A stretch of 40,222 nt of DNA. Origin: a virus. The stretch lies in the IMG/VR virus record IMGVR_UViG_3300037153_000426, positions 1 to 40,222 of that record. The stretch is one strand, 5' to 3'. Shown piece after piece: positions 3,059 to 30,356 of this stretch; position 1 is the first letter of the stretch, and every line of letters starts with the position of its first letter. Made by a program: the position numbers and the translations under genes. Below the pieces are notes generated by a model. The model was not told the DNA's origin, ran no database searches, and saw nothing but the letters and a program-made list of their open reading frames with translations.

Positions 3059-5032
3059 TCACATACCTCCTGCACCTGGTGCGCCGACATTCTGCGCTGC
3101 GCCCTGCATGACCTGCTGCCCCGGCGGTGGCAGAGCCCCCACCCCGTTGGGCGCGGTGGCGAGCGCGGCCAGGTCCGGAACCCCGCCCGCACCTGGCCCG
3201 CCACCCTCGAACACGCCCGGCGCCATCGGTTTGGGTGGCGCGAACGGGCCACCGGGTCCCATGTTGCCCATCGTCGGCTGCACCTTGGCCGCGATGGCCT
3301 GCGCCTGTGCCGCGGCCCCGAGGATGTCGCCGCGGCCCGCGAACTGGAACACCTGCTCGTCGAGCCACTTCTGATACTCGGGGCTCTGGCGGATACGGTC
3401 GCGCGCCTTGGACCTGCGGATCTCGTCGGGGTTGTCGCCCAGGTACTCGATCGCCTCGTCCGAGCCCCACGTGCCGGCCTGCAGCCGCTCGTGGGCGTAG
3501 CGCGCCTTGATCAGGTCGTCGGTGGGCAGCTCCTGCTGCACGTCCCAGCGGATGCGCACCGGGCGCGCGAAGTCGTCGGGCCCCAGCCCGATCCAGCCGC
3601 TGCCGCCCTTGGCGTCCTGGCCGCTGTAGCCGACCCAGATCTTCTCCTGGACCTTGTTCTGGGCCAGGTCCCACAGTTTTTCCGTCTGGCGCTTGAGCAG
3701 CTCCTGGATGTTGTTGACGATCGGCCCGACACGCGTACGGGAGTAGCTCAGCACCTGGCTGATGGCGAAGCCGGCACCCTCCATGCCGCTGAGGGTGGTC
3801 ACCCGCGGCGACTCGAGCTCCTTGATGGCGTTGTCGATGAGCTGCATGTGCTTTTCGAGCGTGGCCGCATCGGGGTACTTGATCGGCTGCATCTGGCGGC
3901 CAGGGCCCAGGTTGATCACCTCGCCTGGCAGCGGACCAGGATCTCTGTCGCGCGGTTTGCCGTCGTCGCCGATGACCGGCGCGGCGCTCGAGTCGCCGTA
4001 GGTCACCAGTGGGCTGAGCAGGTCGCGGGCGACGTACTGGGCGTGCATGGCGCGCAGGTACTGGCGGTACTGGACCAGCCACAGCTTGGTCTGGGAGACG
4101 CCCCAGCCGACCTTGCGATTGCGCCAGTGGTTCATCCACAGGCCTGGCGCGAAGTCGTAGGGGATGAAGCCGTAGCCGTGGCGGAACTGCTTCACGATGT
4201 GACCGGTCGGCTGGCGCTTGTAGTTCTCGCCGGTGACGCACCAGGTCGCCCACGTCTCGTCCCAGTGCTCGAGCATGGTGATCGAGCTCGGCAGGATCGG
4301 CCGACCGTTGGCGCCCCAGGCATTGCTGGGCTGCGGCTGCCCGAGCTCCTCGGGCACGATGTTGCCGTCCTCGTCGTAGCCCAGGCGGTAGCGGCGGAAG
4401 GTGGTCCTGACCGGTCGGTCGGTGACCTCGATCACCTCGGCGATCCTGCCGCCCATCGTGTCGGGGTACACCGTGCGCGCGTCGACGAACTCCCAGGCGA
4501 AGGGCGGGCCGCACTGCTTCTTGGCGTCCTCGGTGGCCTTGTCGTAGTGCTGCCAGGCCTCGTACGACTCGCCCGGGTTGGGCACCGGGTAGGCGTAGCG
4601 CTTGTCCCACGCGTCGGGCAGGAACAGGATCTTGGCCCACGCGCCACCGTCGTTGAGCGCCGCGTCGGTCAGGAACGACATGGTGTCCATGCCCGGCGTG
4701 CGCGCGCCGGTGCTCCACAACGTCTCCTCAGTCCAGTGCTCGCGCTGGCTCGCCGCGGTCTGCGCCGTGTCGGACTCGCCGCCGTCCAGGTGCAGCTTTG
4801 GACGGTTGAGCGTCAGCATCGCCGTCTGCTGGAACGCCTCTTCGGAGACGTCCGGGTCGCGCGGATCCACGTTGACCAGGGTGTACTTGTCGTCGGCACC
4901 CATCATCGCCGGGACGCGCATCTCGCGCTGGGCGCGGTACGTGTCGATCTGCACGTCGTCGCGCCGGTAGCGATCGTACATTTCCGCCTGGAGCTCGCTC
5001 AGGTAGCTCGAGCTCGGTGGGTCGTCAGCCAC
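3059..5032 (-). CDS. Portal protein
   Basis: 657 aa from a GTG start at 5032. The N-terminal motif VNVDPRDPDVSEEAFQQTAM, a central ligand-rich core, and the segment TLSGMEGAGFAISQVLSYSRT before a long C-terminal helical region fit a large (600-700 aa) phage portal family. The last ~90 residues are Gly/Pro/Ala-rich. It forms the dodecameric ring at the packaging vertex and docks TerL. It opens the late minus-strand structural run, separated from the terminase by an accessory cassette. Confidence 0.9.
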   Translation of the reverse strand: MADDPPSSSYLSELQAEMYDRYRRDDVQIDTYRAQREMRVPAMMGADDKYTLVNVDPRDPDVSEEAFQQTAMLTLNRPKLHLDGGESDTAQTAASQREHWTEETLWSTGARTPGMDTMSFLTDAALNDGGAWAKILFLPDAWDKRYAYPVPNPGESYEAWQHYDKATEDAKKQCGPPFAWEFVDARTVYPDTMGGRIAEVIEVTDRPVRTTFRRYRLGYDEDGNIVPEELGQPQPSNAWGANGRPILPSSITMLEHWDETWATWCVTGENYKRQPTGHIVKQFRHGYGFIPYDFAPGLWMNHWRNRKVGWGVSQTKLWLVQYRQYLRAMHAQYVARDLLSPLVTYGDSSAAPVIGDDGKPRDRDPGPLPGEVINLGPGRQMQPIKYPDAATLEKHMQLIDNAIKELESPRVTTLSGMEGAGFAISQVLSYSRTRVGPIVNNIQELLKRQTEKLWDLAQNKVQEKIWVGYSGQDAKGGSGWIGLGPDDFARPVRIRWDVQQELPTDDLIKARYAHERLQAGTWGSDEAIEYLGDNPDEIRRSKARDRIRQSPEYQKWLDEQVFQFAGRGDILGAAAQAQAIAAKVQPTMGNMGPGGPFAPPKPMAPGVFEGGGPGAGGVPDLAALATAPNGVGALPPPGQQVMQGAAQNVGAPGAGGM

Positions 5033-16037: not shown

Positions 16038-16247
16038 GTGGCGGATCCAGCTCGCCAGCCGAGACCGAAGCGCCGCCGTGACGACGGCTATCGTCTGCGC
16101 GTCGAAAGCATCACCTATCTGGGTGATGACGCCGCGGCCGCCCGAGCGATCGAAAACTTCCTGCGGCTAAGCCGGTCGCGCGACCGGCAGGGACCGGTGG
16201 AGCTCGAGGCTGACCGTCGGAACGGTGACCGCGGCCCCCAGCCCTGA
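16038..16247 (+). CDS. Small basic protein overlapping the integrase 3' end
   Basis: 69 aa from GTG 16038. It is Arg-rich (RQPRPKRRRDDGYRLRVESI, then AARAIENFLRLSRSRDR). It runs convergently into the integrase gene for 81 bases, so its last third is antisense to the integrase C terminus. The first ~50 residues look more protein-like than that tail. Low support; it could be a small regulator or not a gene. The preceding 56-base gap contains GCGTGC/GCACGC arms (15998-16003, 16011-16016). Confidence 0.4.
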   Translation: MADPARQPRPKRRRDDGYRLRVESITYLGDDAAAARAIENFLRLSRSRDRQGPVELEADRRNGDRGPQP

Positions 16248-17945
16248 CTCGTCACGCCAAATATGCCGATAGTGCTGTTGGTTGTTTTCGCGTGACACGG
16301 GCGCCGAGAACACAAACACCATGCGCACCGCGCCGTCTGCTGACAGGTACATCTCGCGCAGCGTGTCCTGGACCATGGCGCGCAGCGCGACGCGATCCTC
16401 GGCCTCGCGCGCCGCAGGCCAGCGCTCACGGAGGTCATGCAGCCGGCCAACCGACTCCACCAGGCGCGTCTCGATGACGCCCGCGAGCGCATCTTCGGCC
16501 TCGAGCATCTCCAGTTCGTGGCGCACCGCGCCGGCTTCTTCGCCCGCCGCTTTGGTCTCGCGGAAAAACTCCTCTTCGGAGATCTGGTTGCGGCGGACGT
16601 AGGTCAGCAACTTCGCCCTGGCCTGTTCGTAGTCGGCAAGGCGGGCGCGGAGGGCTTTGGTGCGGTCGTCATTGGCGACACTCGTCCCGTGACGCTCGCG
16701 GGCTTGCTCGCGCAGGACCTCGAGAGCCGAGTCCGGGTGAGCGACGAAGTCGTCGATGGCGTCCAGAACGAAGGCCTCAAGCGCATAGCCGTCGTGGTTG
16801 CGCCTGGCCTGGCAGGGGTCGAGGCCGCGGCGACCGCGCGGCGCTTTGGCCGAGGCGCACACGTAATAGAGGCGCGCCTTCGGATCCCAGCGCTGATTGG
16901 CGACACGATAGTTGCCCAGCATCCGGTGCCCACACTCCGCGCACAGCAGCTTGCCCGACAGGAGGTAGACGTATCCGTCGTTCTGGCCGGCGTTGAACTT
17001 GCTGATGCGACCGCTGACCATTGCGTTCGCCTTATCCCACAGCTCACGGCTGACCAACGCAGGCACCTCCTGGCGCAGGACCGCGCCAGAGTAATTCAGC
17101 TCACGCTCGCCGTAGTAGGTGGGTGAGTGAATCAGCTTCTGCATGCGTGCAGCGTTCCATTGTTCGACGGTCCGCTCGCGCTCGGCACCGTCGCGACGGA
17201 TGTAACGCTGCGTCGACGGCACACCGTTCGCCCTCAGCCAGACGGTCAGCGCCGCGGCACTTTCACCGGCCGCGGCGCGCTTGAAGATCTGGCGCACCAT
17301 GTCGGCTTCGGTACAGCCGAGCTCCTCCACGCGCCGCTCCGACGGCACCAGACGGTTGTCGTCGCCGAGGTCGTAGCCGATCGGCACCGGGCCATTGATG
17401 AACTTGCCCTCGCGGGCGCTGCGGTCGCGGCCGAGCGTGAAGCGCTCGATGATTGTCTCGCGCTCGAGCTCGGCGATGGAGCCGAGCAGTTGGAAGACGA
17501 ACTGGCCGATGGGCGTGCGAGTGTCGAAGGGCTCGGTCGCGCTCAGGATCGCGACGTTGTACCGCTCGAACTCCTCGTGGATGTCGAGGAGCACGCCGAG
17601 ACGGCGGCCGAGGCGATCCAGCCGATAGGAGATGACGACGTCGACACCGCGGGCGCGGACCAGGTCGAGCAGGCGTTTTCCCTCAGGGCGGTCCTCGATC
17701 GCGAGAGCGCCGCTGTAGCCGTCATCGACGAACTGACCGACGAACTGCATGGGCTCGAGCGAATCCGGGTCGAAGTTCGCCTGGTACTTCTTTTGGAGAA
17801 AGTCGATCTGGTTGCGGGCCGTCGCACGCTCGGTCTGCTCTTCGCTGGAGACGCGAACGTAGAACGCGACACGTGTGAGAACACCCATCGCGATGAGTTC
17901 GCGAGGTGTGGCGCGGCGGGTGCGCCGGCTCGCGGCGGTAGTCAC
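16167..17945 (-). CDS. int: Large serine recombinase (integrase)
   Basis: 592 aa. The N-terminal resolvase domain has VAFYVRVSSEEQ with catalytic Ser33 (or Ser34), FVDDGYSGALAIEDRPEGK, VDVVISYRLDRLGRR and QLLGSIAELERE. A recombinase domain follows (NGPVPIGYDL ... IHSPTYYGERELNY). A zinc ribbon shows CAECGHRMLGNY paired with a later YYVCASAK ... DPCQARR, and a coiled coil runs through residues 420-500. It would insert the phage at a specific attB. GTG 17945 overlaps the stop of the XRE gene (GTGA), so the two are translated together. ATG 17888 is an alternative start. Confidence 0.95.
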   Translation of the reverse strand: MTTAASRRTRRATPRELIAMGVLTRVAFYVRVSSEEQTERATARNQIDFLQKKYQANFDPDSLEPMQFVGQFVDDGYSGALAIEDRPEGKRLLDLVRARGVDVVISYRLDRLGRRLGVLLDIHEEFERYNVAILSATEPFDTRTPIGQFVFQLLGSIAELERETIIERFTLGRDRSAREGKFINGPVPIGYDLGDDNRLVPSERRVEELGCTEADMVRQIFKRAAAGESAAALTVWLRANGVPSTQRYIRRDGAERERTVEQWNAARMQKLIHSPTYYGERELNYSGAVLRQEVPALVSRELWDKANAMVSGRISKFNAGQNDGYVYLLSGKLLCAECGHRMLGNYRVANQRWDPKARLYYVCASAKAPRGRRGLDPCQARRNHDGYALEAFVLDAIDDFVAHPDSALEVLREQARERHGTSVANDDRTKALRARLADYEQARAKLLTYVRRNQISEEEFFRETKAAGEEAGAVRHELEMLEAEDALAGVIETRLVESVGRLHDLRERWPAAREAEDRVALRAMVQDTLREMYLSADGAVRMVFVFSAPVSRENNQQHYRHIWRDESGLGAAVTVPTVSLELHRSLPVARPA

Positions 17946-28182: not shown

Positions 28183-28745
28183 CGTCGTCTCCTTGCCTGG
28201 TCGATCGGGTCGTAGCCCTCGCCGCGCTGCAGCTTGGCCGCGAGCTCCTCCTGGGTGTGGCTCGCCGACGTCTCGACGCCGGCCAGCAGCGCCTCTTTCG
28301 GTGCCGCCTTCTCGGGCGGGATGCGCGGCAGCCGCGGCTTGTAGCCGGCCTGCTCGCACAACTGGTTGAACTCCTGCTCGAGCTCGTCAACGTCCAGGTC
28401 GCGCAGCGCGAAGTTGTCGTCGTCGAGCAGCTGGATCTGCGGGTGGCGCGCGATCAACGAGCGGATGCCGGTGATCAGCTGCGCCTTACGTTTTTGCTGG
28501 GCGATGACCTCGGGGCGTACCTCCTGCTCCCACTCGCGCACCTCGTCGGGGCGCAGGATGACGAAGCCCAGGTCCTCGTACATGGCGCGGTTGTTGGGGT
28601 CGCTCTGCAGCTGGACGATGTCGCCGTCGGGTCGGCGGTACCACGCGAGCGGATAGTTGTAGTTGAGCGCATGGTGCGGCACCGCCGGTCCAGCCGGCGC
28701 GGCGCGCTGCTCGAGCCGCTCGAGCAAGCTGAGCGACTCAGCCAA
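28179..28745 (-). CDS. Head-region protein downstream of the capsid, TTG start
   Basis: 188 aa beginning with TTG 28745 (MAESLSLLERLEQ). That TTG lies inside the surviving original tail of the capsid gene (ATTGGCTGA), so start and stop overlapped before the endonuclease insertion. The sequence is helical (EVREWEQEVRPEVIAQQKRKA, ALRDLDVDELEQEFNQLCEQ) with an N-terminal ALNYNYPLAWYRRPDGDIV. It may be a neck or head-closure factor; family not identified. Confidence 0.8.
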   Translation of the reverse strand: MAESLSLLERLEQRAAPAGPAVPHHALNYNYPLAWYRRPDGDIVQLQSDPNNRAMYEDLGFVILRPDEVREWEQEVRPEVIAQQKRKAQLITGIRSLIARHPQIQLLDDDNFALRDLDVDELEQEFNQLCEQAGYKPRLPRIPPEKAAPKEALLAGVETSASHTQEELAAKLQRGEGYDPIDQARRRR

Positions 28746-28770
28746 TGCCCTTGGCCCACACGAAACTGCG
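28738..28770 (-). pseudogene. Relict 3' end of the major capsid gene
   Basis: Read on the minus strand, codons for R-S-F-V-W-A-K-G-I-G-stop are still present here, with the GC-ending codons usual for this genome (GTG, GCC, AAG, GGC). The same peptide (SFGVWAKGIG) now ends the intact capsid gene 767 bp upstream, using GTA, AAA, GGG and ATA. This piece is therefore the original end of the capsid gene, displaced by the inserted endonuclease block. Confidence 0.8.
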
Positions 28771-29543
28771 GCTCAACCTGAGTCGCGCATTTCTTGGCGA
28801 ATACTGAAATGTGCTCACGTCTATTGATCCTTCATTCGGCCACTGGCTGGCCGGCTTCACAGACGGCGAGGGCGCATTCGTCCTGGCGCGCGTCACATCG
28901 ACTCACGGAAACCCACATGGCAAAACATGGGCTACGGCGCGATACGAGATCACGCTTCGCGCTGATGACGCGGCCACGCTGGACCTCATCCGCGACACAC
29001 TCGGCATCGGGACGGTTCGGGCGACCTCCGCCGCGAGCGCAAGCCGACCGAATCAAAAGCCCGCACTGCGCTACGCCGTCTGGCGATTGGGGGAGTGCCT
29101 TGTGCTTGTGGACTTCTTCGAACGGTTCCCGTTGCGCGCGAAGAAGCGGCATCAGTTCGACATTTGGGCTCGTGGTGTACGCGAACTGGCGAAGGGTTCG
29201 TTTCGCGACGAAGCTGTCATCCTCGCCTGCCGTGCAGAACTGGCCGCAGTTCGAGTCTACGACGAGGCCGTGCTGCAAGGCTGGGCACCGACAGCCCTTC
29301 GCCCACTGGTGCGCGAGACAGATCGTGGCGAAGCGCCCAACTGTCTGTGCGGCTGCGGGCAGGCGGTCCTGCCTCACGGCGGGCGCGGCATTCCGCATCC
29401 CGACAATCTGTTGTTTGCTCGGTTTCTTCGTGGCCATCATGCGCGAACAGAGGCTTCTAGGGCTCGCGTCAGGCTCAGGTTTCGCGGTTACTGATTCCCA
29501 AGAATTACCCTATCCCTTTGGCCCATACGCCAAACGATGGACG
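28771..29543. mobile_element. Homing-endonuclease insertion carrying a replacement capsid tail
   Basis: The block between the two copies of the capsid C-terminal coding sequence contains a plus-strand LAGLIDADG gene and, at its capsid-side end, re-coded codons for the last 9-13 capsid residues plus a TAA stop. Codon use changes from GC-ending to AT-ending near 29543. The insertion thus keeps the capsid reading frame complete without splicing. Exact borders are uncertain by about 15 bases. Confidence 0.7.
28811..29494 (+). CDS. LAGLIDADG homing endonuclease
   Basis: 227 aa from GTG 28811. The motif HWLAGFTDGEGAFVLAR at residues 11-27 is a LAGLIDADG helix with the catalytic Asp/Glu. RYEITLRADDAATLDLIRDTLGIG and LVDFFERFPLRAKKRHQFDIW follow, as in the LAGLIDADG_1-type fold with one motif, so it probably works as a dimer. 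The C terminus has CLCGCGQAV ... RFLRGHHAR, an added Cys/His module. It is convergent with the capsid gene, 10 bases apart. It would cut capsid genes lacking the insertion. Confidence 0.9.
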   Translation: MLTSIDPSFGHWLAGFTDGEGAFVLARVTSTHGNPHGKTWATARYEITLRADDAATLDLIRDTLGIGTVRATSAASASRPNQKPALRYAVWRLGECLVLVDFFERFPLRAKKRHQFDIWARGVRELAKGSFRDEAVILACRAELAAVRVYDEAVLQGWAPTALRPLVRETDRGEAPNCLCGCGQAVLPHGGRGIPHPDNLLFARFLRGHHARTEASRARVRLRFRGY

Positions 29544-30356
29544 CATCATCTGATGCCCGAAGATGACCTCCGACGCCAGCTTCCAGGTGAAAAAGTCGAT
29601 GTCGTAGAAGAGGTGCATCTTGGGACTGCGCTGCACGATCAGCGCAATCGCCTCACGCTGGAAGATGAAGTTATTGGCCTGGCCACCGGCGGGCTTGACC
29701 AGGTTGGTGGTCACGCTGATGTTGAGGCCGTACATGTCGCCGATCGAGCCGCTGACCGCGGGCTTGGGGTTGCCGATGTACAGCGCGTTCGACCAGCGGT
29801 CGAGGGTGATCTTGTTGGCCTTCTCGGCCGGCGACATGATCAGGAAGCGGTCGTTTTCGGGCGCGTCGGCGTCGTCCAGGTACTGGTTGCCGCGCACCAC
29901 GTCGATGTCCGCCAGCGCGGTACCCAGGGTGCCGACGGTCTGGGTGAAGCCGGCCACGTCGGCCGCCAGCTTGGAGTCGATGTCCTTGGCGATGGCGTAG
30001 CCCATCTTCATCTGGTACTCGTTCTGGACGTCGACGATCGACTGCACCTTGACGATGTCCTCGATGCCGACCGCGGCGTAGTCCCAGATGTTGAGGGTGA
30101 TCGTCGTCGCCGTCTCAGCCACCGTCTCGTAGGTAATCGCCGTGTTCTCGGCTTTGGCGCGCGCTGCGACGTTGCCGATCGAGGCGACCTTGACGCTCTT
30201 GCCCACGCTGGCGTCGTCCTCGAACTCGCGGTTCACCTCTTTGGCGAACACCAGGTTCGCCTCGGTGGCGCGCAGCACCTGCTTGGACCAGATGTCCGGC
30301 GAGAACACGCCATCGGCAATCGTCTTGTCGACGAACTCGGTTGCTCCTACTGGCAC
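29505..30356 (-). CDS. Major capsid protein
   Basis: 283 aa from GTG 30356, with AAGGA seven bases upstream. KSVKVASIGNVAARA, ATTITLNIWDYAAVGIEDIV, DRFLIMSPAEKANKIT and FIFQREAIALIVQRSPKMHL are typical of P22/N4-gp56-type HK97-fold coat proteins, and the scaffold-like gene lies immediately upstream. The last ~10 codons are AT-ending (GTA, AAA, ATA, TAA), unlike the rest, because this tail came with the inserted endonuclease block. The protein sequence at the end matches the relict copy except for one extra Gly. Confidence 0.92.
   Translation of the reverse strand: MPVGATEFVDKTIADGVFSPDIWSKQVLRATEANLVFAKEVNREFEDDASVGKSVKVASIGNVAARAKAENTAITYETVAETATTITLNIWDYAAVGIEDIVKVQSIVDVQNEYQMKMGYAIAKDIDSKLAADVAGFTQTVGTLGTALADIDVVRGNQYLDDADAPENDRFLIMSPAEKANKITLDRWSNALYIGNPKPAVSGSIGDMYGLNISVTTNLVKPAGGQANNFIFQREAIALIVQRSPKMHLFYDIDFFTWKLASEVIFGHQMMRPSFGVWAKGIG

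Follow-up and report, generated by a model that had tools for sequence, protein, structure and literature searches.

A LAGLIDADG homing endonuclease gene behind a phage capsid gene with a re-spelled 3' end

Endonuclease genes that provide an essential gene with a new 3' end have been described in fungal mitochondria. Such tail-replacing mORF hybrids are found in atp6 of Allomyces macrogynus and in atp6, atp9, cox2 and nad3 of Glomus (PMC3630166). In Glomus atp6 a LAGLIDADG gene is situated between the inserted and the native C-terminus; the two are ~64% identical in DNA, and for the native C-terminus the identity to a relative reaches 91% (PMC3630166). For the phage locus analyzed here, the original prediction drew a comparison with fungal atp6, which proved to be apt (PMC3630166), and held that a similar replacement was not known from a phage capsid gene. 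In line with the latter, we found no phage case of such a tail-replacing endonuclease in the open-access literature, which was the text covered.

The capsid locus and its two tails

The window, that is, the whole stretch of DNA analyzed, is a 40,222-bp IMG/VR virus contig (hereafter W) derived from a soil phage. Besides the capsid gene there are genes for a terminase and a RecT-like annealing protein. A large serine integrase (window positions 16167-17945, with Resolvase and Recombinase domains) is encoded as well, so the phage is probably temperate. No relatives of the W capsid were found in two scans of 84,980 GTDB species genomes, and a 3-kb region of W had no match among 50,697 phage records. 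With the capsid protein as query, 62 viral loci were obtained; searches with the homing endonuclease gene (HEG) and two further capsids gave 170 loci, 112-113 of which are distinct. The features of the locus are listed in Table 1.

Table 1. Features around the capsid gene 3' end in the window
Feature	Position	Strand	Basis or remark
Major capsid gene, 283 aa	29505..30356	(-)	ORF; Pfam Phage_capsid_2 and PHROG 267 (major head protein); ends in the replacement tail
Re-spelled final 11 codons + TAA, CCATCGTTTGGCGTATGGGCCAAAGGGATAGGGTAA	29505..29540	(-)	Differs from empty-site relatives; 26-nt block common to L019
LAGLIDADG homing endonuclease gene, 227 aa	28811..29494	(+), antisense to capsid	Pfam PF00961, PDB profiles
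39-nt segment ahead of the HEG start, ending ...GTTGAG	28772..28810	(-)	Right end of the putative mobile unit
Native capsid 3' end remnant, CGTGTGGGCCAAGGGCATTGGCTGA	28738..28762	(-)	Exact match to the capsid gene ends of L003, L004 and L006
Next gene, 188 aa	28179..28745	(-)	TTG start inside the native capsid remnant

As predicted, the capsid reading frame terminates with SFGVWAKGIG and TAA (MRPSFGVWAKGIG-TAA), and a LAGLIDADG gene lies on the opposite strand between this end and a second copy of the tail. The two genes are arranged tail to tail, the stop codon of the LAGLIDADG gene being 10 bases beyond the capsid TAA. The LAGLIDADG ORF matches Pfam LAGLIDADG_1 with an E-value of 3.5e-10 (41.1 bits; cut-off 23.1) and, in PDB profiles, I-OnuI-type structures (best E-value 8.5e-19). 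In its motif, LAGFTDGEG, residues D18 and E20 are invariant across four aligned HEG copies, and the copy in L069 has the same motif. An AlphaFold model of the HEG product built from four sequences had a mean pLDDT of 43, too low for use. C-terminal to the LAGLIDADG domain, residues ~176-212 contain a conserved Cys/His cluster (CLCGCG...H..RGHH; lost in L069), which is possibly a zinc-binding DNA-contact module.

Close relatives reveal the empty state of the site, as the prediction had anticipated for phages without the insert. The capsids of L003-L006 are 98-99% identical to that of W in protein, and their site is empty: in L003, L004 and L006 CCGACGTTCGGCGTGTGGGCCAAGGGCATTGGCTGA runs straight into the next gene, which in empty-site relatives overlaps the capsid stop by 8 nt. 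Since the native tail and the next gene are contiguous in close relatives, the downstream copy in W is the old tail, and not the unrelated sequence that could also have been encountered there. What remains of it are the final 25 nt with TGA, a stop located 767 nt from the new one. The old end had been expected to read SFVWAKGIG; of this, only the last eight codons, VWAKGIG and the stop, are convincingly native. The 'SF' ahead of them comes from the end of the element or from degraded sequence, and one Gly codon, between F and V, is absent.

The upstream tail differs from that of the empty-site relatives at 9-10 of 36 nt, nearly all of the differences being synonymous. Its description as consisting of AT-ending codons holds in part: five of the 11 sense codons, not all of them, end in A or T, and GC3 drops from ~0.93 in the capsid body to 0.50 in the last 12 codons. 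No other 11-codon window in the W capsid gene has GC3 this low, and genome-wide 110 of 8,340 such windows are as low. The tail also contains ATA and GTA, which account for 0.3% of Ile and 2% of Val codons in the genome, respectively. In the comparison with L003, no part of the capsid gene is less similar than the final 36 nt, whose similarity is at or below that of every one of the 248 body windows. Compared with L004, the difference is 24% in the tail vs 7.3% in the body (Fisher p=0.0035), with seven codons changed synonymously and one non-synonymously. The preservation of the protein while the codons change supports the replacement reading. With the downstream copy being the old tail, the upstream one, which is fused in frame with the capsid, is the replacement that the capsid now uses.

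On the other side of the HEG, the right end ...GTTGAG is common to W, L019, L066 and, weakly, L060, and the flanks beyond it diverge. Shared right ends next to unrelated flanks mark a discrete unit. We regard it as quite probable, as part of the overall interpretation given below, that a mobile unit of ~0.78 kb comprises the replacement tail with its stop, the antisense LAGLIDADG gene and the 39-nt leader. The insertion point is ~8-12 codons upstream of the capsid gene end. In the W leader there is also a possible 14/15-nt match to a 'HQEMRD'-type capsid end; it is shared by neither L019 nor L066 and was given no weight.

Recurrent insertions and re-spelled tails among relatives

A look for other insertions with different re-coded tails had been suggested as a check, and such insertions were found. 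An antisense LAGLIDADG gene is present behind the capsid in five lineages, represented by W, L019, L060, L066 and L069. HEG identity to W is 85% for L019, 72% for L066, 60% for L069 and 55% for L060. The L069 gene is truncated to ~159 codons, and therefore its mobility may be over. Three additional lineages (L121/L122, L173 and L027/L028) have at the same junction an HNH_3 endonuclease, which is unrelated to the LAGLIDADG family, or its remnant. The gene is intact (HNH_3 + NUMOD4) and antisense in L121/L122 and L173, and it is reduced to a remnant in L027/L028.

Capsid tails are altered in all of the HEG-bearing lineages, LAGLIDADG and HNH alike. The LAGLIDADG lineages have different tails, with W and L019 as the exception: an identical re-spelled block of 26 nt occurs in both, even though 64% of synonymous sites differ between their capsid bodies. 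In L066 the tail is not as poor in GC, and several of its amino acids are changed. In L069, compared with relatives ~6% different in the capsid body, changes are concentrated in the last 11 codons; its active tail is re-spelled, and its remnant GGCCAAGGGAGCCGCGTAG has the native spelling of the clade. The altered tract is ~11 codons long in W and L069 and reaches ~30 codons in L060 and the HNH cases, and in the HNH cases the start of the next gene is altered too, at least in L173 and L027. Native remnants are kept in W, L060 and L069, those of W and L060 both starting at or near the same GTG codon. They are lost in L019 and L066, where the element reaches the next gene and no native tail remains.

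The presence of the HEG is thus polymorphic at one site among relatives. On the capsid-body tree the LAGLIDADG label, absent from L003-L006, needs five changes and the HNH label three, with gains and losses indistinguishable on this tree; each HEG-bearing lineage has HEG-free neighbours. In nearly all of the distinct HEG-free loci the capsid gene and the next gene overlap or are within ~40 nt of each other, so that an insertion must break one of them. For distinct loci, the GC3 drop in the tail is 0.33 with the HEG (n=8) vs 0.07 without it (n=104; p=4e-5), and the excess of divergence in the tail over the body, measured against the nearest HEG-free relative, is also greater with the HEG (p=1e-4). 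Excess tail divergence at p<0.01 is seen in 12 of 95 HEG-free loci as well, which means that the tail is variable anyway.

Some re-spelled tails occur without an endonuclease gene. L011 and L059 have a W-type tail (positions 5617-5652 in L011), 33 of 36 nt being identical to W compared with 83% identity in the body. The nearest capsids to L011 by body are those of L027/L028 (94%), which have another tail. L029 is re-spelled on both sides, at the capsid end and at the start of the next gene, and has no endonuclease gene, a two-sided pattern resembling the scar of a lost HNH element. All of these loci look like scars or resistance alleles.

The same capsid family contains insertions at two other positions. 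At capsid codon ~88, L045 (4249-4998) and L046-L052 appear to have a group I intron that holds a LAGLIDADG gene; its RF00028 match is weak (E-value 3e-4, below the gathering score). At codon ~20, L031 (~4390-5000), L027, L028, L044 and L192 have an intervening sequence with a LAGLIDADG gene; the L031 insert has no Rfam intron match even at an E-value of 10.

Proposed mechanism and alternative explanations

The interpretation that we find likely is that homing endonucleases invade the 3' end of an essential gene and bring along a functional, presumably cleavage-proof replacement. Within it we infer cleavage, homing and resistance; cleavage and protection by re-spelling follow from what is known of homing endonucleases. 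The endonuclease would cut the native capsid 3' end in a co-infecting relative, and repair off the HEG-bearing genome would join the recipient capsid to the element's own tail. That tail would encode nearly identical amino acids with different codons and keep the capsid functional; re-spelling would remove the cutting site, and the new tail would presumably no longer be a substrate. An element residing in the last codons of the capsid gene would have to supply the capsid end, and the native end would have to stay where the next gene starts inside it. The displaced native tail would then remain downstream, untranslated, being kept where it holds the start codon of the next gene and eroded elsewhere.

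Speaking against this interpretation are the tail variability among HEG-free loci, the atypical tail of L066 and the truncated HEG of L069. The re-spelling, moreover, could be donor sequence carried by co-conversion and not selected for resistance. In its complete form, this alternative considers the HEG an ordinary free-standing intergenic gene homing by normal double-strand-break repair, and the odd tail the AT-richer capsid end of a donor that was never under selection for resistance. It predicts alterations on both sides of the insertion, as indeed observed in the HNH cases (capsid end and next-gene start), and it agrees with the variable tract lengths; HEG-free phages with W-type tails (L011, L059 and L029) could be direct donors. 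However, the tails retain clade-specific residues (AKGIG, AKGAA, NGAS), unlike what a distant donor would bring, and native remnants persist on the right, where normal two-sided homing would replace them. We also found no capsid that combines a naturally AT-rich body with such a tail. We judge this alternative, ordinary homing with co-conversion and no selection, to be unlikely. A further alternative is a group I intron: the block, with its LAGLIDADG gene in antisense, would be removed from the RNA by splicing, and the native tail would be restored. Native codons do exist downstream, a comparable intron is known in the capsid gene of mycobacteriophage LittleE (PMC3706429), and the capsid family itself has the apparent introns at codons ~20 and ~88. 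Nevertheless, the upstream tail already codes for a complete capsid end, and L019 and L066 have no second exon, as there is no native tail to splice to. Of 18 junctions that would restore the protein by joining to the remnant, none combines U at the end of the exon with G at the end of the intron, and the block has no Rfam intron match up to an E-value of 10, in a search that failed to detect the codon-20 intron as well. Based on these junctions, the missing Rfam match and the lost native tails, we rejected the group I intron, which seems very improbable. An intein was rejected as well, because the capsid frame stops at TAA ahead of the HEG and the HEG is antisense.

Finally, W is at first sight a single metagenome record, and one might suspect an assembly chimera or a chance likeness of the two tails. 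A second IMG/VR record, however, spans the whole insert with seven mismatches in 13,997 nt (99.95%), a third contains the right junction with 100% identity, and both empty sites and further cases occur in other samples. With the insert spanned by the second record, we rejected an assembly artefact, and this explanation as a whole has next to no probability left. The predicted invasion of an essential gene without intron or intein, by replacement of the last codons, is backed by the empty sites, the reading frame and the failed splice junctions.

If the replacement reading is taken further, these elements might be natural 'home-and-rescue' drives: at least two unrelated families, LAGLIDADG and HNH, would have arrived independently at one capsid 3' end, each with a cleavage-proof copy of that end in synonymous codons, and HEG-free L011/L059 and L029, with nothing but the re-spelled end, would be natural resistance alleles or scars. 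We see about an even chance of this being so. On the replacement reading itself, the locus shows how a selfish gene can gain access to an indispensable phage gene: it needs no self-splicing device, as it supplies a substitute for the part that it disrupts. The relatives form a dense set (empty sites, recent insertions, eroded insertions and HEG-free re-spelled alleles), in which the course that such a drive takes, with resistance included, can be studied in nature. The same process may explain patchy codon anomalies at phage gene ends.

Comparison with known systems

Several described systems share individual features with the W element. The free-standing T-even HEGs segF, segG and mobE also have neither intron nor intein, reside beside an essential gene and are presumed to target that gene in relatives (review PMC2988022). 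In the passages covered, T-even HEGs are placed between intact genes or split a gene (Aeh1 mobE in nrdA), and a replacement tail with a native remnant left behind is not among the arrangements described (PMC2988022). LittleE likewise has an antisense LAGLIDADG gene inside a phage major capsid gene (PMC3706429), but there it is part of a spliced intron, the capsid is restored at the RNA level and no tail is duplicated. Mitochondrial introns of Tremella (PMC7315562) are mobile elements that bear a piece of the host gene, exchanged upon insertion; in contrast to the phage case, these host-gene duplications are N-terminal, intron-borne and fungal. Engineered HomeR drives (PMC7968924) combine a homing nuclease in an essential gene with functional rescue. 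They are synthetic and CRISPR-based, and the likeness is one of analogy only.

The closest counterparts are the fungal mORF hybrids (PMC3630166). In both systems an essential gene has an endonuclease gene inserted close to its 3' end, the replacement C-terminus is in frame, synonymous but diverged, and the native C-terminus is left downstream (here in W, L060 and L069, though not in L019 and L066). The differences are that the gene invaded here is a phage capsid gene and that the HEG is separate and antisense in all LAGLIDADG and HNH cases. In two Glomus cases (atp6 and nad3) host gene and endonuclease ORF are in phase, and this same-strand arrangement is not seen here. Furthermore, the phage site is used by two unrelated HEG families, the replacement is as short as ~11 codons, and HEG-free loci carry a re-spelled tail. 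By analogy, then, the W element appears to work like the fungal mORF hybrids, and we do not class it as a member of that group by descent.
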